A DNA stretch of 64,000 nt, taken from Hasllibacter sp. MH4015 (GTDB taxonomy: Bacteria; Pseudomonadota; Alphaproteobacteria; Rhodobacterales; Rhodobacteraceae). A program made the translations under genes and the position numbers. The stretch spans positions 2,229,875 to 2,293,874 of the forward strand of contig NZ_JAHTBK010000001.1 of assembly GCF_020177575.1 (NCBI RefSeq), read 5' to 3'. Below, piece after piece: positions 54,096-63,915 of this stretch (position 1 is the stretch's first letter; every line of letters begins with the position of its first letter). The notes under the pieces are model-generated. The model worked only from the letters and a program-made list of their open reading frames with translations. It had not been told where the DNA came from and did no database searches.

Positions 54096-54275
54096 TCACC
54101 TATTGAAACGTCGCACCACGCGAGGCGAGTTGGCGGAGTGGTTACGCAGCGGATTGCAAATCCGTGTACACCGGTTCGATTCCGGTACTCGCCTCCATTT
54201 GTTTTCAAGCACTTGCGCCCCACTGTCGCTTGCGCGGCCTGCGCCGTTTACAGGTGCGTTTACAGTTTTGTTCAC
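54096..54275 (-). CDS. 5' part of a gene that spans attP, truncated by integration
   Basis: A GTG at 54275 overlaps the integrase stop as GTGA, with GGGGGTG a few bases upstream. In the integrated state the frame reads VNKTVNAPVNGAGRASDSG..., passes through the attL core and ends at a TGA in host DNA (59 residues in all). In the circular element the same frame runs through the core into 63857 and on to the stop at 63365, giving a 205-residue protein. The two halves are in phase (67 + 551 bases = 206 codons). Whether the GTG is used needs experiment. Confidence 0.5.
   Translation of the reverse strand: MNKTVNAPVNGAGRASDSGAQVLENKWRRVPESNRCTRICNPLRNHSANSPRVVRRFNR
54124..54197 (+). tRNA. tRNA-Cys (anticodon GCA), integration target
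   Basis: A 74-nt tRNA with acceptor GGCGAGT pairing with ACTCGCC, anticodon loop TTGCAAA containing GCA, T arm CCGGTTCGATTCCGG, and encoded CCA. From the anticodon loop to 11 bases past its CCA the sequence is repeated exactly at 63858-63915, so the island integrated here and left the tRNA whole. Confidence 0.95.
54151..54208 (+). repeat. attL core (58 bp, overlaps tRNA-Cys)
   Basis: Identical over 58 bases to 63858-63915. It covers the anticodon loop to the CCA end of tRNA-Cys and 11 bases beyond. Confidence 0.93.
54245..54265 (+). repeat. Two direct CGTTTACAG repeats beside attL
   Basis: CGTTTACAG occurs at 54245-54253 and 54257-54265, spaced 12 bp. A matching CGTTTACA lies at 63766-63773 and a variant GTTTACC at 63820-63826 on the other side of the core. 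In the circle they would flank attP, as expected for integrase arm sites or excisionase sites. Confidence 0.55.
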
Positions 54276-55321
54276 GATGCACCCCCTTTTGCATGGGCGA
54301 GTTTCACAAGAACGGCGTCGGTTTCATCGGGCGAGACCCGAGCATAATGCTCGATCACATTCGCCGCGTAGCGAACCGACCAACCCATGTGATTTGCGAT
54401 CTCCGCAAGCGAAAGACCGGCGTTCAATAGCCGCGTTGCAGCTGTGCCGCGCGCATCGTTGAGGCGCAATTCATCCGACAGCTTGGCCTTGTCGCGCCAC
54501 TGGCGAACACCTTCAGACGCGCGGTGCAGGGTCAGGGCGTTGCCGCTGGCATTTGTCAGGATCAGCAACCGGCCAGGTGGGGTTGCATCAATCACCTGCG
54601 CCAGCGCTTGCGTGATCGGGATATGGGCCAACCGCTTGCGCTTGTTCGTCCTGACACGGAGGCGGCGACCGAGCGGGGTCTGTTCGACGTGGGCCGAGGT
54701 CAACTTGATCAGGTCAGCCGGACGCAAGCCGGTTTCACACGCTACGCAGAGAAGGCGAGAAACCCATTCGGGGGCAATCGCATCAAACGCTTCACGGTCA
54801 GCTGGAGTCCAGACGATCTCGGAGCGATCCACCTCATAGAGCCGGTGGAGTTTGTGGCAAAAATGCTCGGACAGCTTGCCCTCCTGGACCGCCCAATTGA
54901 GGATGCGGACTGCGTGGGTGCCAGCCATGTCGTGTTGCTTGGGCGAGTGCCTCCAAAGCGCCCGCCATTCGTTGACCTCGCCCCTTGCACCACGCTCCTC
55001 AAAGATGACGGCAGGCGCATCCTTGAAGTGGTCCGCGAAACGCAGGCCCCACTTGCGAATGTCAGCACGGGATCGCTGGCCTTTCGGCATCGCGGTGCTG
55101 GACAGAAAGTCATCCACCAATTGCGGCGTCATGTAATGCGACGGCTTAGGGCGCTCCACCGCATCCGCAAACGCCAGATAGAATGCAGGATCACCCGGTT
55201 TACGATGGTCATCCTCCCAAAATTTGGGACCTCCGCGCCATGCGTAAAAATGGAACCGGCTTTTGCCGCTTGCCAAACGCCGCCGAACGCGATGAACGCC
55301 TTTGGGCAGATCAGCCGCCAT
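54272..55321 (-). CDS. int: Tyrosine recombinase (integrase) of the island
   Basis: A 349-residue phage-type integrase. The catalytic arginine R200 in CETGLRPADL, the lysine in RTNKRKRLAHIPI, the second basic block RLNDARGTAATRLLNAG and the nucleophile Y326 in IEHYARVSP are in the right order. The canonical HxxR histidine position holds an asparagine (NDAR). The N-terminal 90 residues form a core-binding SAM-like domain. It lies beside the intact tRNA, pointing towards it. Its stop overlaps the GTG of the attP-spanning frame. Confidence 0.92.
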   Translation of the reverse strand: MAADLPKGVHRVRRRLASGKSRFHFYAWRGGPKFWEDDHRKPGDPAFYLAFADAVERPKPSHYMTPQLVDDFLSSTAMPKGQRSRADIRKWGLRFADHFKDAPAVIFEERGARGEVNEWRALWRHSPKQHDMAGTHAVRILNWAVQEGKLSEHFCHKLHRLYEVDRSEIVWTPADREAFDAIAPEWVSRLLCVACETGLRPADLIKLTSAHVEQTPLGRRLRVRTNKRKRLAHIPITQALAQVIDATPPGRLLILTNASGNALTLHRASEGVRQWRDKAKLSDELRLNDARGTAATRLLNAGLSLAEIANHMGWSVRYAANVIEHYARVSPDETDAVLVKLAHAKGGAS

Positions 55322-55517
55322 GTCGGTCAGCCTTCCACTTTTCGAGCGGCGTCATATCGGCTTCGCCAGTCTCTGCGTTGCGGCGCGCGGTGATCTTCAT
55401 TCGGTCGCCGCCCGGTATTGGCGCATCCACTGAGACTTCATCCCACCCGGCTGCAAACGCAGCGTCAAAGGCAGGTGTCAGATCGGATTTGCGAATGACT
55501 GCAGGGCGACGTTCCAT
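55311..55517 (-). CDS. Small protein upstream of the integrase
   Basis: About 68 residues from MERRPAVIRKSDLTPAFDAA. This short-protein type commonly sits between regulator and integrase in Rhodobacterales phages and islands. Its end overlaps the integrase start by 11 bp, so it is co-transcribed. The role is unknown; a directionality factor is possible. The start is uncertain because a longer frame begins at 55556. Confidence 0.6.
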   Translation of the reverse strand: MERRPAVIRKSDLTPAFDAAFAAGWDEVSVDAPIPGGDRMKITARRNAETGEADMTPLEKWKADRHGG

Positions 55518-55524
55518 CTGAGTA

Positions 55525-55986
55525 CTAGTCCTCCGGTCCGATAATGGAGCGCTCAATCTCAGTGTAGTGCGCGATCAGCTTACGGAGTTTGGAGACATTG
55601 AACGTCCAGACCTGCCGGACATCGGTGTCATGCATGGACGGAATCTCCCAATCCTCGGGAACCTCAGAAAACGGGCAAGCATACCCGCTCGGTGAAGCGA
55701 ACCAATCAAAGACGTAGCTGATCTGCTTAACGGAGGGATTTTGCCGTGCGGCTTTCGACACTTCGCAAGCGATGTGACCGGCAGCACGGGCGTTCAACCC
55801 ATCTTCAAGCAGATCCCGGAATAGCCGAAGGGCAATCATGTCTTTCGGTTTGAAATACCGCGACCGGCCCGGCACCGTCGCGGGTGCGCAGGTAAATGCG
55901 CCGGATGCTACATGTTCGTTAAATCGATCACGGTTTAACTGAGCGACCTTACATGCGGCTGCAGTCGTGAGGCGGGGTTCGACCAT
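55525..55986 (-). CDS. MerR/excisionase-like DNA-binding protein
   Basis: A 153-residue protein. The N-terminal helix-turn-helix region (LTTAAACKVAQLNRDRFNEH with RSRYFKPKDMIALRLFRDLL) has the MerR/AlpA-like pattern. AlpA-type proteins control excision and induction of phage-inducible islands, so this is the best candidate for that switch here. AGGAGG precedes the ATG at 55986. It is followed closely by the small gene and the integrase, forming a three-gene operon. Confidence 0.65.
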   Translation of the reverse strand: MVEPRLTTAAACKVAQLNRDRFNEHVASGAFTCAPATVPGRSRYFKPKDMIALRLFRDLLEDGLNARAAGHIACEVSKAARQNPSVKQISYVFDWFASPSGYACPFSEVPEDWEIPSMHDTDVRQVWTFNVSKLRKLIAHYTEIERSIIGPED

Positions 55987-56055
55987 GATGACCTCCTGAT
56001 TTTTTCCAGAGGTATATTTGCCTTTGGGAAAAATCAAGAGCTTTTTGGTGTGGAG

Positions 56056-56250
56056 TTAGTCGCTAACTGCGTCGGCCAATGCGCGAATCTCAAATTGGAC
56101 GAGCTCACATAGGCGCTCGAGCAACGGCTGGTCTTGGTGATCCGCGATTTCAACTGCACAGGTAGCAAGGCTTTCGATGTGGAGAAGTCGTTCATAGACC
56201 GTTTCACCGCGGATGGCAGCGGCATGGGTATCAGCAAGTTTTTGCGACAT
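56056..56250 (-). CDS. Small hypothetical protein divergent from the repressor
   Basis: A 64-residue protein (MSQKLADTHAAAIRGETVYE then RLLHIESLATCAVEIADHQD). It is helical and acidic, and I do not recognise the family. GGAGAA lies upstream of the ATG at 56250. It is transcribed divergently from the Xre gene across a 63-bp interval that holds the palindrome TGCACATGTGCA, a typical lytic/lysogenic switch layout. Confidence 0.6.
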   Translation of the reverse strand: MSQKLADTHAAAIRGETVYERLLHIESLATCAVEIADHQDQPLLERLCELVQFEIRALADAVSD

Positions 56251-56281
56251 TGTCGGATTCTCCAAAATTTGTTATGACATT

Positions 56282-56293
56282 TGCACATGTGCA
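56282..56293. promoter_or_regulatory. Palindromic operator TGCACATGTGCA
   Basis: A perfect 12-bp palindrome in the divergent promoter interval between the 64-residue gene and the Xre regulator. It is most likely the binding site of the Xre protein encoded just downstream. Confidence 0.6.
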
Positions 56294-56313
56294 TTTAGCA
56301 CAAGGATGGACTT

Positions 56314-56538
56314 ATGACAAGCGCACAAGTTCGGGCCGCTCGCGGGCTCTTGAATTGGACGGTTAGAGACCTCGCGGAGCGCGCAAGCGTTCATCGAAAC
56401 ACCGTCACAAACATTGAGACGGGTCGATATTCCGGAAGTGCAGATGCCCTATCGGCCATTCGTTCTGCGATCGAGTCCGCCGGTGTTCAGCTGATCGCGG
56501 AAAACGGCGGGGGTGCAGGAGTGAGGTTTAAGAAATGA
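56314..56538 (+). CDS. Xre-family helix-turn-helix regulator
   Basis: A 74-residue repressor-like protein that is almost only a DNA-binding domain: AARGLLNWTVRDLAERASVH then RNTVTNIETGRYSG. It probably keeps the island quiet from the palindrome at 56282. Its stop overlaps the next gene in ATGA. Confidence 0.85.
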   Translation: MTSAQVRAARGLLNWTVRDLAERASVHRNTVTNIETGRYSGSADALSAIRSAIESAGVQLIAENGGGAGVRFKK

Positions 56539-56771
56539 CGAAACGCGAGTTGGAGCGCCGGATCGAAGAGCTCGAAGGCAAGGTCGATGACCTGCAGAGA
56601 CTAGCCCAAAATGCCGACCTGATCTTGGCCGCGATGGTCGGTCGGCTGGCGCATGAAACAGACGGTCACTTCGACATTGGTGTGCCCGACTCAGTGATTG
56701 GGACTGATGAGGATCGTTGGCTCATGGCAGTCATACACGGCTTCAATCGCGCGTCTGAGGGACAGGGCTGA
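56535..56771 (+). CDS. Small coiled-coil protein coupled to the repressor
   Basis: A 78-residue protein. The first 35 residues are a coiled coil (TKRELERRIEELEGKVDDLQ), followed by a more polar C-terminus. It overlaps the Xre gene by 4 bp. It may be a partner or anti-repressor; there is no recognisable family. The 126 bp between its stop and the convergent portal gene holds a GC-rich inverted repeat but no clear terminator. Confidence 0.6.
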   Translation: MTKRELERRIEELEGKVDDLQRLAQNADLILAAMVGRLAHETDGHFDIGVPDSVIGTDEDRWLMAVIHGFNRASEGQG

Positions 56772-56897
56772 AAAAATCGCGCGCCGCGCCCTTATGGAAA
56801 AAGGCCGCGCGCTGTCGGGGTTGTTACGGCACTCACCGACTGAACCGGGATGTTGTGGGCTAAAGATGTGAAAGAAAAAGCCCAAGGCACATCCTGC

Positions 56898-57962
56898 CTA
56901 TTTCTCCCAATCAACCATGCGCATGGCCCCTGACACCGCTCCTGGCGGGATGCCTGCCTCTTTCGCCTCGGCAATCGTTTTGACAATCGCGGACAACGCG
57001 CGGGCGCGCCCCCCGGCGTCAAAGGCCTGCAGTGGCCGGATCGTGTCGATCTCCACTAGCCCACCGAGTTTGGTGGCTGCCTCCTCGGCCAAGAGCGCGG
57101 CGATGGGTTGCAGGGTCCAGATCGCAAGCTGGCGCTGAGCCTCGCGGACTGCCGGGCCAGTAGCCGCACGGTTCACCAGCGAGGGCAGAACGCCATAAGC
57201 CATCAGGATACCCTCTCGTGCGGCTGCCAACGTCTCTGCCGTCATACTCTTGGAAAGATCCGGCGAAATCTGGTCCGGGCTCTGGCCGATCTGTGGGTTC
57301 ATGCCCGCCGCCGTCGCCTGTGCCACGCCCTCGATCACCAGCGTCGAGCCCCGCCGTCCCCGGAACGCATCGCGCATCGACGCCATGTCTTCCGCCCCTG
57401 TGTCGGGCAAGGGCACAATCTGCGATCCGAGGGGGGCATTCTCGAATGTCTCGCTGAGCGCAGATTCGACCGCGTAGAGCATCGCCCCGGTCAGGCTGGA
57501 CCGGCGAAGAGGGGCGGTGCCGATCCACGGGGTCAGGTTGTCGGTTCCGATCCGAAGATGCAACACCTCAGGGGCAAGTGCAGTGACCGTGCGTCCACCT
57601 CCCGCCTCGGGGATCGACAGACGATAGGCGCGCGGCTTGCCGTCTTTCGTCGTCACTTCCCAATCGGTTACGGGGACCAAGCCGAGGTCGGTGATCAGAT
57701 AGACCGCTTCGCCATTCAACGCGACGGCGCGGGCGATCATCGCCATGGTCTGGCGCGTCAACAGGTCGGTACCCGACACATCAGCCATCGCAAAACCCCC
57801 TTCCCACAGACTTACGCAGCTTTGCACCGTCGCCGTCAGTTCGGCCACGCCGCGCCGACCACTGATGAAGCTGTCCCGCGCCGCCATGACCTGGGCCGTG
57901 TAGCCAGTACCGCTGGACCTTGCCTCTATCGGGCGCAACTTGTTCCTGAGCCATCCGAGCAT
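56898..57962 (-). CDS. Phage portal protein (HK97 family)
   Basis: A 354-residue portal subunit, the dodecameric ring through which DNA enters the head. Typical blocks: LVPVTDWEVTTKDGKPRAYR, TPWIGTAPLRRSSLTGAML, SDQISPDLSKSMTAETLAAA-like helix and NRAATGPAVREAQRQLA. The start at MLGWLRNKLRP has GGAGGT upstream; an ATG four codons earlier contains that site. It is the last gene of the head operon, after the protease. Having the portal last is unlike the usual HK97 order. Confidence 0.9.
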   Translation of the reverse strand: MLGWLRNKLRPIEARSSGTGYTAQVMAARDSFISGRRGVAELTATVQSCVSLWEGGFAMADVSGTDLLTRQTMAMIARAVALNGEAVYLITDLGLVPVTDWEVTTKDGKPRAYRLSIPEAGGGRTVTALAPEVLHLRIGTDNLTPWIGTAPLRRSSLTGAMLYAVESALSETFENAPLGSQIVPLPDTGAEDMASMRDAFRGRRGSTLVIEGVAQATAAGMNPQIGQSPDQISPDLSKSMTAETLAAAREGILMAYGVLPSLVNRAATGPAVREAQRQLAIWTLQPIAALLAEEAATKLGGLVEIDTIRPLQAFDAGGRARALSAIVKTIAEAKEAGIPPGAVSGAMRMVDWEK

Positions 57963-57964
57963 AA

Positions 57965-58543
57965 TCACCTCCAACGCAGCGCGGCGGGGCGATGCGTCAA
58001 GCGGCTCACTACCTCGCCAATGGGTTGCCAGTTCCGGGCTTCGATCTGGGCTTGCGGATACGCGGGTTTCGTGACGGCGCTGATCTCGATCAGGTCAGCC
58101 GCATTGATTGTCCGAAGGATCGCGCCCTCGCGCTCCTCGACCTTTTCCCCACCCGGTTGTACCCGGAACCCGGGGGAGAGGCCGCGCACAAGGCCCGCCG
58201 CATGGGCACTCAGGAAGTCGCGCACGTAGCTGACTTGGTTCATGTCGGCGCCAATTCTCGCCTCGACCGTCAAAGCCTCATCGGTTTCCGACAGGAAGAG
58301 CGTGCCGGCAGACCGCGAGGCAAGCGGCCTGTTAAAGTCGTGGCCGGACAGGAAATGCACATCCTCATCGCGCTCGATACGATCTGCGAATGCGCGCGGA
58401 GCAATCACCTCTCGCCGTTCACGCCCCATTGCGCCCGCCTCGGCCAGTACGGTTTCCCGGCCATAGGGAAAGATTGCCCGAAGGCGGGTTTCCCCGCCCT
58501 CGGTGCGCAGCTCAAGGCTGCCGATGTGTCCCCCCCAGTACAC
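57965..58543 (-). CDS. HK97-type prohead protease
   Basis: A 192-residue protease that matures the procapsid. The catalytic histidine lies in FLSGHDFNRPLA and the catalytic serine in VRGLSPGFR. It starts at a GTG that shares its first base with the last base of the capsid-gene stop (TAGTG at 58543), so translation is coupled to capsid synthesis. It ends 3 bp before the chosen portal start. The assignment is clear from the motif pair and the position. Confidence 0.88.
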   Translation of the reverse strand: MYWGGHIGSLELRTEGGETRLRAIFPYGRETVLAEAGAMGRERREVIAPRAFADRIERDEDVHFLSGHDFNRPLASRSAGTLFLSETDEALTVEARIGADMNQVSYVRDFLSAHAAGLVRGLSPGFRVQPGGEKVEEREGAILRTINAADLIEISAVTKPAYPQAQIEARNWQPIGEVVSRLTHRPAALRWR

Positions 58544-59814
58544 TACGCGGCTTCCAGTTCGAGGCCGGTCAACAGTTCGAGTTGGGCCGGGCGCGCCACG
58601 GTAACATCCATCGTCGCCAACGCCGTGATCCTCAACCCACCGGACTGTGCATCGCTGTAGGGGTCGCGGATCATGTCCACCGCCCCCCATGCGCCCACGA
58701 AAATCGGCGCGACACCGCCCGCCGTCGTGGTCAGAAGCGCCGAGGTAGCGGCGGGCGTACCGGACGGGGCGGCAAGCGCGTTGCTTGTCATGGCGATGTT
58801 GCTTGCCGGGATGTTCTTCAACAGCCGGTCCCATTCAGACAGGTCCGGCAGTATGGACTGCTTACCTTCCATGTAGTCCCACAGTTCCGGGCGCACCAAC
58901 GCCCGCACCTGGCCGGGGGCATTGGCCGCATTCGCCGTCATAAACCGGGTCACTCCCGCCCGAAACGCAGCCCATTCCGCCAGCGCATCTACCGCCGTAG
59001 ACGTGATGCCGTAGGTCGCCGCGCCCGTGATGACACCAAGCGGTTGGCCGTTGGCCCCGGTGCCAAGGAAAACCGCCTGATCCATGGCCGCGCCCATAGC
59101 CCCGCTCATGTCGCGCCGCACGGCCTGTTCAAGCGCCGTGCCAGACTGCTTGAGGGTCTTGCGGGTGATGCGCATCTGAATGCCGAGGTTGTGGTCGGGC
59201 GACATAGCGCGGTCGGTGGTCGCGTAGGTGGTCGGCCCGGCGACATTCGCCGTCTCGCCGTCCGCCCATCCCGCCGTGACGGCCGAGGTGGTCACAGGCC
59301 ATTCCACCGCCCCTGAGGCGATGCTGATCATTTGAGCCCCCATGCGCGCCGCCACGCTGTCCGGGAACAGCCGGTCAATGATCGGACGGGTCTGGATCGG
59401 GTTCGGAGTGCCACTCGCGACAGTTTCACCGTCCCGTACTTCCAGCGCCTGCCACGGCACGGGGATGCCCCGAAAGCCGCCCTGTTCGCGCAGTTCGGAT
59501 ACGATCTCTGCCGTCTGCCCCTCCAACGAACGACCTTCATCAAGGGCCAGCGCGACCTGGCGCATCTCGAACCCGGCCATGAGATTCACCCATTCCTGGG
59601 CGGAGCGGGTTTCCAGTTCCTCGCCCGCATCACGGCGTTCGGTATCTTCCGCGATCAGGGCCGCGCGATAGCGCGTTTCGTTCGAACGATACTCTTCATC
59701 GAGTTCGTCCATTTCCTCGACCTCTTCCTCGGTCGGCTTTTCCTTGTTCGCCATCTTCGCGAGTTTCTGGCGGATTTCGCTTTGCCGCCGGGCGATCTTC
59801 ACAGACTCGAGCAT
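58543..59814 (-). CDS. HK97-type major capsid protein
   Basis: A 423-residue capsid precursor. The first 130 residues are a helical, charged scaffold-like delta domain (EKPTEEEVEEMDELDEEYRS), removed by the protease in this family. The rest is the HK97 fold: TRPIIDRLFPDSVAARMGAQ, QMRITRKTLKQSG, LEQAVRRDMSGAMGAAMDQA and IFVGAWGAVDMIRDPYSDAQ. The element thus builds its own shell. It begins 4 bases after the HNH stop. Confidence 0.92.
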   Translation of the reverse strand: MLESVKIARRQSEIRQKLAKMANKEKPTEEEVEEMDELDEEYRSNETRYRAALIAEDTERRDAGEELETRSAQEWVNLMAGFEMRQVALALDEGRSLEGQTAEIVSELREQGGFRGIPVPWQALEVRDGETVASGTPNPIQTRPIIDRLFPDSVAARMGAQMISIASGAVEWPVTTSAVTAGWADGETANVAGPTTYATTDRAMSPDHNLGIQMRITRKTLKQSGTALEQAVRRDMSGAMGAAMDQAVFLGTGANGQPLGVITGAATYGITSTAVDALAEWAAFRAGVTRFMTANAANAPGQVRALVRPELWDYMEGKQSILPDLSEWDRLLKNIPASNIAMTSNALAAPSGTPAATSALLTTTAGGVAPIFVGAWGAVDMIRDPYSDAQSGGLRITALATMDVTVARPAQLELLTGLELEAA

Positions 59815-59817
59815 CGT

Positions 59818-60156
59818 CTATCCTTTCTGCTCAATTGGGTTTTTGCCGGGCCGCTCAAGCGACCCGACTGCATTCCGCCATGCCTGGCGGTCTTCTCGGG
59901 GCGGGGGATGCCCGCACTCGATCCGGGTTTTTCGGGAGTGGCACCCTGGGCAGAGCGCCTGCAGGTTGCGCGGGTCGTAGGACAATTCCGGGTGAGTCCT
60001 GACCGGTTTGATGTGATCGACCTCGAGCCGCCCGCCGCAGCCACAGGACCGACAACGGTAGCGGTCCCGCTCGAGGATCTCGGCCCGCAGCGCCTTCCAG
60101 CGTTTCGTCCGGGTCACCTTTTTCGAGTGCCGTTCGTGATCCTTCCGAACACTCAT
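59818..60156 (-). CDS. HNH endonuclease (packaging-associated)
   Basis: A 112-residue HNH nuclease: YRCRSCGCGGRLEVDHIKPV, then NLQALCPGCHSRK with the zinc cysteines and the HNH histidines. In HK97-like cos phages an HNH protein encoded beside terminase helps DNA cleavage for packaging, and that is the likely role here. It starts within the stop of the adaptor gene (ATGA at 60153-60156). Confidence 0.88.
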   Translation of the reverse strand: MSVRKDHERHSKKVTRTKRWKALRAEILERDRYRCRSCGCGGRLEVDHIKPVRTHPELSYDPRNLQALCPGCHSRKTRIECGHPPPREDRQAWRNAVGSLERPGKNPIEQKG

Positions 60157-60497
60157 GGCAGATCATCCGACTTGGCCGTGATCTCAAGGAAGCCGCGGTT
60201 GTCCGGCACCTCCTTGATACCGTCGATCTCGAAGGTGACGCCTTCATGGATCAGGCGGTCGGTGCGTTGAATGCTGCGGCCCGTGGCGCTGGCCCGGATC
60301 ACAAATCGGGTGACCAGGACGTTGTCCCATTCTGCAGCGTTCAAGCGTTCCGCGTCAGACACGTCGCGTCGTTGCGCGAAGATCAGTGGCCCAAAATCCT
60401 GCCATCCGCCCATCTGTCCGCCGAAGCCATCGGTACCGATCTGGACGAACCGCCGGACCTGAATGCGCCGGTTCAGGTTTGCCGAGTTCAGAACCAT
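60153..60497 (-). CDS. Head-tail adaptor protein
   Basis: A 114-residue protein of the phage head closure/adaptor type: LNRRIQVRRFVQIGTDGFGG then WQDFGPLIFAQRRDVSDAER and a beta-rich C-terminus. It would seal the portal and receive a tail. Since the island has no tail genes, the tail must come from a helper. The start at MVLNSANLN overlaps the terminase end by 10 bp; a longer frame lies inside the terminase gene and is not believed. Confidence 0.82.
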   Translation of the reverse strand: MVLNSANLNRRIQVRRFVQIGTDGFGGQMGGWQDFGPLIFAQRRDVSDAERLNAAEWDNVLVTRFVIRASATGRSIQRTDRLIHEGVTFEIDGIKEVPDNRGFLEITAKSDDLP

Positions 60498-62206
60498 GAC
60501 ATCCTCGCTTTCGTCTGCGGGGCCGCTGCGATGCGCGCGCCTTGGGCAACGGCAAGCACGGACGCCGCCGCTGCGTCGATCCGGCCCGTCGATCGAGCCT
60601 TCGCCAGTTTCAGGTTGTTGGCCGGATCGCGGAGACACACCGCGTCCGCGAAAGCAGATCGCAGCAACAGGGACGGGCGGGCTTTGACCAGGCCGTCGAA
60701 CGCGGCGCGGCGGAACCTTTCGCAATCCTCGCCACCGTCGCGGAAGCCCTGCCCTCGCCAGACGCAGGGAGCGCGGACACCCGCCCGATTCAGCGCCTCG
60801 GAAAGTTCAGCCTGCTTGTAGCGATCCATGGTGATCGCAATGACCTGCTGGCCATCGACCTGACGCATGACCTCGGCCAGCCACGGGGCTACGGGCACCG
60901 TCTTGTCGCCGAGGACGGTTAACTCGCCCCGCTCCTGCATCTCGACATACCGACCAGCCACGCCATCCGACTGGCCCCGGTCCAACAGGGACGGCATGGT
61001 CGGGAAGGTGCCGAGGCATTCAAGCCGCCCGGTCTGGGGCCAGTAGAACGCGGCGGCGGTCATTGAGGCAGAGCCGCCCAGGTCGATGCCGATCACCACC
61101 CCGCCTTCACGCGGAGGCAGGATATCGGTCTCGCAATTCAGCCATTCATCGAGCGTGATTAGTAGATCGCGGGCTTCGCCAGACACGCGCTCGTTTCGAT
61201 TGTAGAGGCGGAAAGACGTGAGGCTCGATCCGCCGCGCGCAATCGCGCGCTTCGCCTGAGCTTTCAGCCATTCCAGCGATCCACCGATGCCGTGCGGTGC
61301 GCCGGGGTTAGCGATCAACAGGCTTTCCGCGTCATCGGCGGGCAGGCCCGGCGCGGGCCGATGTTCCTGCACGTAGGAGCCTGGCAAAGGGTCATCGATC
61401 CACCGCGAAAACGGATGCGTGTCGTCGCTGGCAGAGGTGCTAATCAGGAAAGCGCGGCCATCCCGCTTGCCGAGGCCGGACAGCAGGGCGTGTTCGAGCT
61501 CGTCGCCTCGATCGAGCGCCCAATGGCCGCGCTCGTCCAAGATCGCCATGGTGGGCGCGCCGCCGAGGGCTGACTTGCCATCAGCTGCGATGACGCGAAG
61601 GACATGCCCACCGCCGTCACCCTCAAACTCGATTTCAAGGCGCGGCGCACGGCGGTAGATCAGACGGCTTTGAAGATCGGGCGGAAGGGTGGCAGCGAAG
61701 CCCGCGACAAAATCCCAGATGATCCGGCCCTGATCCCGCGTCCTGGCAGCGGCAATGATCTCGCGCCGGGGCTGACGGTCCCAGACACCCAAGAGTCCGC
61801 CGAGCGCAAGGCCCGCCGTGATAGCCGACTTGCCATTGCCGCGCCCAATGCTGAGAACCGCGTTCGCGGTGTCATCGGCCATCGCGCCTTCAATGAATTG
61901 GCGCTGGAAGGGTGCGAGATTCACCGGTTTTCCGGCATTCGGCCCCTCGGGAATTCTGAGGCCATGCATAAAGTGCATAGCTCTTTCCGCCGGGGTCCCG
62001 TTTTTCAGTTCAGGCCGTTGCGCGAAAATTGAAAACTCTCCTTCACGCTCCTCTTTGCCTGCCAAAGTCGCGGCATTGGGACCATTACCGAAGAGGTCGC
62101 TGTCGTAGCGATCTTGCAATGACTGGGCAGGCGCGCCGACGCGATTGAGTTTCGACCCATCGGCCCTTCGCCACTGTCGATTACCTGTCTTGTCCGCCTG
62201 CTTCAT
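60488..62206 (-). CDS. Terminase large subunit
   Basis: A 572-residue packaging motor. The ATPase Walker A variant SIGRGNGKSA is near residue 115 and the nuclease domain starts with VIGIDLGGSASMTAAAFYW and ends with DRYKQAELSEALNRAGV. It would package island DNA into the island's own heads. The start at MKQADKTGNRQW is uncertain; the frame is open to 62305. A small terminase is not recognisable among the neighbours. Confidence 0.9.
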   Translation of the reverse strand: MKQADKTGNRQWRRADGSKLNRVGAPAQSLQDRYDSDLFGNGPNAATLAGKEEREGEFSIFAQRPELKNGTPAERAMHFMHGLRIPEGPNAGKPVNLAPFQRQFIEGAMADDTANAVLSIGRGNGKSAITAGLALGGLLGVWDRQPRREIIAAARTRDQGRIIWDFVAGFAATLPPDLQSRLIYRRAPRLEIEFEGDGGGHVLRVIAADGKSALGGAPTMAILDERGHWALDRGDELEHALLSGLGKRDGRAFLISTSASDDTHPFSRWIDDPLPGSYVQEHRPAPGLPADDAESLLIANPGAPHGIGGSLEWLKAQAKRAIARGGSSLTSFRLYNRNERVSGEARDLLITLDEWLNCETDILPPREGGVVIGIDLGGSASMTAAAFYWPQTGRLECLGTFPTMPSLLDRGQSDGVAGRYVEMQERGELTVLGDKTVPVAPWLAEVMRQVDGQQVIAITMDRYKQAELSEALNRAGVRAPCVWRGQGFRDGGEDCERFRRAAFDGLVKARPSLLLRSAFADAVCLRDPANNLKLAKARSTGRIDAAAASVLAVAQGARIAAAPQTKARMSWF

Positions 62207-62592
62207 CTCGCGTCTTCGTCCACTTGTTTTTCCCAATCTGCCCCACCCCTGCTCACTGGTGAGGGTCGTTGTGACGGTCAGAAAGCGGGTTACTGCGACG
62301 AGCATTAAGACCCGTCTCCCGCCCTAACCGTCGCGATCTTGCCTGCTCACCGGAGCCGGGCCGCCGCTTAGGCCAGACCTGCCTTTCCCTCGGCTCGGTC
62401 CGCTCTCCCATGTTCACCGCCGCGAGGGTGGCAGTGGGGCCTTAGGGCCTGGAGAGACCGCGTGTGCGGAATAGCTGCCCTTGTGCTGTGGCCCGTTACC
62501 CGGTAGCACTGTGATGCGGTGTCCCCGGCTAACCCTTGAAAGCCAGACGCTGCATGAGCCCGCCGTTGCACCGGCGGGCTTTCTGTTTCAGA
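62207..62592. other. 386-bp gap upstream of the terminase, with hairpin
   Basis: No convincing gene of normal length. A strong hairpin AGCCCGCCG TTGCA CCGGCGGGCT followed by TTCTGTTT (62556-62588) would terminate plus-strand transcription. A 52-codon minus-strand frame (62411-62253) starting MGERTEPRERQVWPKRR is basic and could be a small protein. Several further GC-rich stems suggest a structured RNA or a packaging (cos) site. The identity is unknown. Confidence 0.45.
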
Positions 62593-62823
62593 TCACCCCT
62601 CAATCACTTGAAAATCGTCGTCTGGCGTTGTGCCCAACTCGGAGACCAGTCGCCGCATGATCTGGGCCTGCTTCGCCGATGGATGCCAGGCAGAGCGCTT
62701 TCCTTGCCGGGCGATGGACTGGACAAAGCCCTTAAGCCAATCGTCCGACCCATCTGCCATCACTCGCCGAATGACCTGTGGCCATTGAAGCGTCAGGATC
62801 TCATCAAGCTCGCTGTCGGTCAT
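62593..62823 (-). CDS. Small protein between connector and terminase
   Basis: A 76-residue protein (MTDSELDEILTLQWPQVIRR ... GKRSAWHPSAKQAQIMRRLV). It starts in the stop of the connector gene (ATGA at 62820). The helical, tryptophan-containing sequence is not recognised. Its place directly before the terminase could suit a reduced small terminase, but it lacks a helix-turn-helix I can identify. Confidence 0.6.
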   Translation of the reverse strand: MTDSELDEILTLQWPQVIRRVMADGSDDWLKGFVQSIARQGKRSAWHPSAKQAQIMRRLVSELGTTPDDDFQVIEG

Positions 62824-63368
62824 GCCTGCACCCCGCGATACCGCGCGCCCACACGCGCCATGTGGGGAGAGGTGGTCAGGCTCTTGGCGTCCATCGGGGA
62901 CCGGCCATCGAAGTGCAGCGCAGCTTGATCCATGAGGGCTTGAGCGAGGTCAGGCGGAATGTCAGCTGCGTCATTACCGAACCCCGCCTGATACTCGATC
63001 GTCAGTTTCTCAGGGCTGAGGTTGAAGAAATCGGGAGACCAATGGATGTATGGCCTGATGCCGCCCGCAAAGTCGAATGAGGTGGACGCCTCGCCGTCAA
63101 CGGTTACGGACGGAGTGCCATCATCGGCGACCGGGCCAATGGGGAGGCTCAAACCGCAACCGGGGGCAGGATTGAATACTGTGACCCGGATCGATTGTGT
63201 CAGCAGCGCGATCTGCGCAAATTGCTCGATCTCAGCTGCCGCCGTTCGCCCGATGTTCTGGATCGCGTTATCTTCCGCGTTATCCGAGACCCGCAGGTGC
63301 AGCTTGAGTTCATCAATGTCGAAAGGCAGTCCAGCGCCTTCTGCTATCCGCTGAACGAGTATCTTCAT
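62820..63368 (-). CDS. Head-tail connector protein (gp6-like)
   Basis: A 182-residue protein of the phage gp6/YqbG-like head-tail connector family: LKLHLRVSDNAEDNAIQNIG, TAAAEIEQFAQIALLTQS, IEYQAGFGNDAADIPPDLAQ. This last block (GF..ADIPPDL.QA) is the family hallmark. It forms a ring under the portal. It overlaps both neighbours by 4 bp (ATGA), so it is part of one tight operon. Confidence 0.87.
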   Translation of the reverse strand: MKILVQRIAEGAGLPFDIDELKLHLRVSDNAEDNAIQNIGRTAAAEIEQFAQIALLTQSIRVTVFNPAPGCGLSLPIGPVADDGTPSVTVDGEASTSFDFAGGIRPYIHWSPDFFNLSPEKLTIEYQAGFGNDAADIPPDLAQALMDQAALHFDGRSPMDAKSLTTSPHMARVGARYRGVQA

Positions 63369-63706
63369 ACCGCCACCTCCATTTCACTGATGTGCTGGAA
63401 GAACGCCGCCTGATCTTTGCGGCTCATGGCCTCGAACGATGCAAGAGCGAAGGCTTTGCGCTCGTCGCGGCTGGCACGTACTGCCCACTGCCGCGCTTCA
63501 TCCATTTCGCCGAGAAATGCGGGCAGTGGGCCGCCAGCCGAACCAATTGCCGCTGCTGCCGCAGCCTGGGCCTGATCCGGGTTCAGGGACCGAAGGGCCG
63601 AAAATGCTAGCGAAAGACGTTCGGCCTCAGAGAGGCGGGCGGCAGCTACGATGCTAAAAGCCGCCCAAGCATCAAACGATCCGACCATCAGCGAATAGCC
63701 GAGCAT
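63365..63706 (-). CDS. First gene of the head operon, 3' part of the attP-spanning frame
   Basis: From the first internal ATG (63706) this is 113 residues: helical, alanine-rich, SIVAAARLSEAERLSLAFSA ... RKAFALASFEAMSRKDQAAF. The same frame is open upstream, with protein-like content (SKIGRFIDSEHKRISR directly before that methionine), through the attR core to a stop near 63920, but contains no ATG, GTG or TTG there. In the circular element it connects in phase to the GTG after the integrase, giving 205 residues. It is not recognised; the position suggests a head or packaging factor. It overlaps the connector gene by 4 bp. Confidence 0.65.
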   Translation of the reverse strand: MLGYSLMVGSFDAWAAFSIVAAARLSEAERLSLAFSALRSLNPDQAQAAAAAAIGSAGGPLPAFLGEMDEARQWAVRASRDERKAFALASFEAMSRKDQAAFFQHISEMEVAV

Positions 63707-63857
63707 CCTCGAAATGCGCTTATGTTCAGAGTCGATGAAGCGGCCAATTTTGGATCGGGGCTTTCCGTTTACATTTGCCCTGTAACCGTTTGATTTTTCG
63801 GCACCCTCCGAAGGGTAATGTTTACCGCTTTGTGGTGGGTTTTCAGAGGCATCCGGA

Positions 63858-63915
63858 GGATTGCAAATCCGTGTACACCGGTTCGATTCCGGTACTCGCC
63901 TCCATTTGTTTTCAA
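63858..63915 (+). repeat. attR core (58 bp partial tRNA-Cys copy)
   Basis: Exact copy of 54151-54208. It contains only the anticodon loop to 3' end of tRNA-Cys and therefore is not a working tRNA. DNA from 63916 to the window end has no visible gene. Confidence 0.93.

Follow-up and report, generated by a model that had tools for sequence, protein, structure and literature searches.

Mycobacteriophage BPs and its relatives display integration-dependent immunity, with attP located within the repressor gene 33; upon integration the repressor loses 33 C-terminal residues carrying a degradation tag, and it is the prophage form that is active (PMC4557955). In Tn916, operon expression depends on circularisation of the element and transcription is coupled with an antiterminator (PMC11658703), which makes it, by analogy, a precedent for circle-dependent operon expression. 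In the SSV-type suicidal archaeal integrases the integrase gene itself is split, with attP inside it (PMC8371274). None of these accounts (PMC4557955, PMC11658703, PMC8371274) describes a structural operon split between start codon and body. A gene spanning attP is not described for cf-PICIs in PMC11389934 or PMC10803314, and Rhodobacteraceae are absent from the cf-PICI hosts given in the latter.

Here, we analyse the window, a 64,000-nucleotide stretch from Hasllibacter sp. MH4015 (Rhodobacteraceae), in which a small, virus-like island is integrated in the chromosome of a marine bacterium. Judged by its gene content, the element is a capsid-encoding phage satellite akin to cf-PICIs. We consider it highly likely from the sequence that the head operon's first gene contains attP within its coding sequence, and that excision assembles this operon and thereby licenses it. 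The features of the island and its borders, in window coordinates, are as follows:

54151-54208, attL core, 58 bp: 3' part of tRNA-Cys (54124-54197) plus 11 bp
54209-63915, the island, 9707 bp
54209-54275, minus strand, 5' part of the leader frame, from a GTG (54275) overlapping the int TGA
54272-55321, minus strand, tyrosine integrase (int), 349 aa, PF00589
55311-55556, minus strand, 81-aa ORF overlapping int, no family
55525-56037, minus strand, 170-aa ORF without a Pfam or PHROG match
56056-56265, minus strand, 69-aa ORF, first gene of the integrase operon
56314-56538, plus strand, XRE-type helix-turn-helix protein, PF13560/PF01381, divergent from the integrase operon; probable repressor
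56535-56771, plus strand, 78-aa ORF directly after the XRE-type gene
56898-57974, minus strand, portal protein, PF04860, last gene of the head operon
57965-58560, minus strand, prohead protease, PF04586, from a provisional start; the ORF spans 57965-58834
58543-59814, minus strand, HK97-type major capsid protein, PF05065
59818-60156, minus strand, HNH endonuclease, PF01844
60153-60497, minus strand, head completion protein, PF05521
60488-62305, minus strand, terminase large subunit (TerL), PHROG 9; matches of relatives begin at residues 4-70
62306-62592, minus strand, non-coding gap before TerL, 287 nt
62593-62823, minus strand, 76-aa ORF, common to both satellite types (see below)
62820-63368, minus strand, gp6-like head-tail connector, PF05135
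63365-63706, minus strand, first head-operon gene, the body annotatable when integrated, 113 aa
63707-63766, minus strand, conserved N-terminal 20 codons (GKPRSKIGRFIDSEHKRISR), under purifying selection and without a start codon
63767-63857, minus strand, right attP arm, an unconstrained linker with GTAAAC arm-like repeats, open in frame
63858-63915, attR core, 58 bp, right end of the island: exact repeat of the attL core

The int gene is intact and ends 63 nt before the core, so attP is outside int. TerL is about 28-30% identical to its counterparts in HK97-type phages, GenBank phages include no close record for the island, and the head module is complete, while there are no tail genes among the island's genes. 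In the gap before TerL, the blocks CGGGTTAGC, AAGGGCAG and CCGGCTCCGnTGAGCAGG are conserved in 16 relatives, and the gap is a possible packaging (cos/pac) site. A consensus promoter scan of the whole island could place no promoter anywhere and is uninformative on a head-operon promoter. The right end of the tRNA-Cys core (63858-63915) is also found with 47/47 identity on the Rhodobacteraceae plasmids NZ_CP021410, CP081101 and NZ_CP123585, perhaps in other elements using the same tRNA-Cys site.

When the circle is made in silico by joining 54209 to 63915, a minus-strand GTG (54275-54273) that overlaps the int TGA (54274-54272) opens a frame of 618 nt, free of internal stops, that runs through attP and on into the head operon's first gene, as a sequence-only reading of this DNA had claimed; it ends with a TGA (63365) as codon 206, which gives a product of 205 aa. 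Upstream of the GTG lies AGGGGGTG, with a Shine-Dalgarno (SD) duplex energy of -14.6 kcal/mol, and the left arm (54209-54275) contains two in-frame TGTAAAC repeats, read GTA AAC, which are probably integrase arm sites. In the integrated right part the frame is open back through the core, and no ATG, GTG or TTG occurs upstream of ATG 63706, again in agreement with that reading; a non-canonical start (ATT, ATC) may lie inside the conserved N-terminus of the window's copy. The circle has 4-nt overlaps at the int/leader, leader/connector (the ATGA that the same reading had correctly picked out) and connector/76-aa ORF junctions, and its 13 genes in one direction, interrupted solely by the 287-nt gap before TerL, form one apparent operon. 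The other two forward frames of the interval contain 3 and 5 stops, and dinucleotide shuffling gives P of about 0.05 for the interval being open by chance, so that one island is only suggestive.

Searches with TerL and the first protein yielded about 270 loci, from which later int-anchored loci were kept separate. Both att copies were located in 42 islands, 35 of them non-redundant, and the ends were joined in silico; short att repeats (13-15 bp) are possibly misplaced in single islands. Among these 35 islands, which are phylogenetically linked and not independent draws, and for which the first-protein tree is poorly resolved, the interval from the int stop to the first gene is stop-free in the gene's frame in 27, and in the other two frames in 2 and 0, where dinucleotide shuffles predict 2.9 of 35 open. 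The 27 open frames are far beyond chance, and chance openness of anti-tRNA sequence is ruled out by the frame counts and shuffles. The start of these 27 fused islands overlaps or lies close to the int stop in nearly all cases (ATGA, ATGAATAA, GTGA); in two further islands, L159 and L063, it sits between the int stop and the core. A single tRNA-Cys core is used in three different frames, depending on the island (WRRVPESN, LEASTGIEP, GGEYRNRTG), so that the frame is set by the element. Stops in related islands, which the sequence-only reading had named as counting against it, close the interval in six of the 35 (L042, L045, L055, L165, L169 and L174), and exactly these six have their own start codon and a strong SD within the island. 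They serve as natural controls, arguing that the missing start and SD of the fused islands are not a gene-calling accident; since they work with their own start, the coupling is not indispensable.

Alignment of the first protein reveals a conserved N-terminus, xSxLSxFMKPEHKRMSR, directly before the window's Met, present in the window as SKIGRFIDSEHKRISR and without a start. Codon analysis in two att groups gives a dN/dS of 0.27-0.33 for the last 17-20 codons before this Met and 0.97-0.99 for the linker, which is yet kept open. The sequence-only reading had described the right part as protein-like and proposed to check homologous islands for conservation and purifying selection of the frame; openness (27/35) and the last ~20 codons before 63706 bear this out, whereas the att-proximal leader, at a dN/dS of about 1, is unconstrained. 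By this contrast, the conserved N-terminus is protein and the att-proximal leader is open, free sequence with arm-like repeats (TGTAAAC in the window's group, in frame as GTA AAC). In an AlphaFold model (pLDDT 85), the first long helix spans residues 13-28 with Met 63706 (residue 21) at its centre; the conserved codons before this Met supply one half of the helix, and an internal start there would be predicted to cut it.

The mean SD duplex energy is -8.1 kcal/mol for starts at the int stop (29 islands) and -11.2 kcal/mol for the starts that the six closed islands supply themselves, while internal Mets reach a mean of -1.7 kcal/mol; translation from an internal Met is disfavoured by the SD scan and by selection. 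The best circle start is stronger than the best integrated start in 26 of the 27 fused islands (Wilcoxon p 8e-6), and the window offers no integrated start at all for the conserved N-terminus of the first gene.

These data bear on three alternatives. The frame across attP could be kept only to let ribosomes trail RNA polymerase past int and on into the head operon (preventing polarity, with coupled re-initiation), the fused peptide having no role and the protein restarting inside; the linker, with its dN/dS of about 1 and a sequence that varies freely between islands, would suit such a role, but purifying selection acts on the last 17-20 codons as protein, the internal starts are nearly without SD, and the window has no ATG, GTG or TTG for the conserved N-terminus, so that we regard this explanation as unlikely. 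Less likely still is expression of the gene when integrated, from a start in flanking host DNA or in the core, whereby integration would swap N-termini with no silencing: some islands (e.g. L039, L047 and L086) do have a GTG or ATG in or beside the core, with the frame entering host DNA, but the integrated start is the weaker one in all but one of the 27 fused islands and is lacking in the window. That anti-tRNA sequence and integrase arm sites leave the frame open incidentally, with no translation of it, is very improbable, for although anti-tRNA-Cys is open in several frames and the arm repeats constrain the DNA, openness is confined to the head gene's frame (27/2/0 of 35), the same tRNA is read in different frames between islands, the int-stop starts have good SDs, and the closed islands combine stops with a start of their own.

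The first protein has no match in Pfam, PHROG, PDB or BFVD and no match to a helix-turn-helix family. It also leads satellites with an unrelated head module and is therefore not tied to one capsid type; the earlier label of "head protein" is doubtful for this reason, and the protein may not be a head component. In the second satellite type, recognised with Pfam in L160 and L166, the same leader precedes a lambda-type gpA terminase, a lambda-type portal and a Phage_capsid_4/Mu-like capsid, and the 76-aa ORF is present as well; L158 and L162 were placed in this type by their similar gene layout. By this comparison, head modules appear to be swapped behind a constant leader gene. The integrases of the 35 islands fall into 11 clusters at 40% identity (<40% between clusters), and fused islands occur in 10 of the 11, at many att sites. 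L048 carries the first protein closest to that of the window together with an integrase of a different cluster and a different att site, which suggests that the frame is kept or re-made through integrase exchange. The frame, the position of start and SD, the conservation, the selection and the gene order are established at the level of sequence. It is likely that a widespread group of Rhodobacteraceae satellites, spanning two unrelated head modules and no fewer than 10 integrase lineages, uses the att site as a coding-sequence switch: the translatable leader of the head operon would be disabled by integration and re-created by excision, which would license the particle genes in both translation and transcription.

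Several loci depart from this layout. An int ends directly upstream of a leader gene within the chromosome in L304 (12380-12980), L190 (4224-6133) and L034 (7219-8868), probably as tandem islands sharing one core; the hybrid int/leader junction is open in L190 and out of frame in L304, which fits a matching of frames solely inside each island. As a candidate circular attP junction L304 was rejected, its int/leader junction being chromosomal, and so were L205 and L208, in which int adjoins the leader gene out of frame or divergently. L218 and L119 are contigs of ~10 kb with identical ends and the same head genes, possibly plasmid-like satellites; lacking an integrase-profile match, these terminal-repeat contigs are uninformative as attP evidence. 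L310 (G051:C4) could be a mini-island: its tRNA-Cys cores are only about 3.1 kb apart, and an in-frame fusion of 228 codons through the core still links int to a partial leader protein. In L303 (G311:C29) a WIN-type integrase and head genes are present, and the frame from the int-stop GTG leads through the core to an unrelated ORF of 113 codons that has no first-protein match. A strict fused-protein query and two attP pattern scans of IMG/VR returned no assembled attP junction of a fused-type island.

Under the proposed licensing of the head operon by excision, the integrase operon (69-aa, 170-aa and 81-aa ORFs and int) would continue unbroken into the head operon in the excised circle. A ribosome ending int would re-initiate at the GTG that overlaps the stop, translate both arms and the core between them as a neutral linker, and then enter the conserved first protein, whose gene overlaps that of the connector by ATGA. 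Integration would cut the leader gene in the core, so that the ribosome-binding site and start remain with int at attL, and the gene body, devoid of a usable start for its conserved N-terminus, sits 9.7 kb off at attR beside the remaining head operon. Excision would thereby license the head operon: translation of the first gene at the least, and probably transcription as well. The central claim of the sequence-only reading, that the gene is made whole by excision, which also connects the head operon with the integrase operon, is strongly supported by comparison of the islands. Its further claim that heads form only after excision stands as a prediction, as does transcription of the operon from the integrase promoter alone. 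We infer that transcription reads through from the int promoter and that the integrated operon is silent; the same applies to the biological timing.

If true, this would constitute a simple physical control of a late operon, in which recombination assembles a gene and no separate late regulator is needed, and the silencing of satellite capsid genes in the chromosome would become testable through one attP point mutation. Gene callers are predicted to misplace the start of the first gene wherever the island is integrated, and the tail of the integrase gene, attP and the head leader to evolve as a single reading frame even across integrase swaps.

Among known systems, the island resembles cf-PICIs in being small and integrated and in encoding an HK97-type capsid, protease, portal, HNH, terminase and connectors of its own but no tail proteins; its 9.7 kb compares with about 14 kb for cf-PICIs (PMC11389934, PMC10803314). 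As in cf-PICIs, there is a tyrosine integrase with flanking att sites. Mobilisation by a helper phage that provides the tails is a further trait of cf-PICIs. An AlpA-type regulator and a primase are typical of PICIs; unlike these, the island yielded neither AlpA nor primase (no Pfam match for the 170-, 81- and 69-aa ORFs). As with the SSV-type integrases, integration splits a gene holding its own attP, but here the integrase stays whole and it is the downstream gene that is split (PMC8371274). Compared with Tn916, the island additionally joins a reading frame and a ribosome-binding site across the attachment site (PMC11658703); the Tn916 arrangement of a promoter upstream only in the circle fits the island's gene order, while the consensus scan placed no promoter. 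Finally, the island shares with BPs an attP within a reading frame that is whole only when unintegrated, and a product altered by integration (PMC4557955); unlike in BPs, the gene appears to lose its 5' part with start and SD, it is the leader of a head operon, and the free form is the one proposed to be active.
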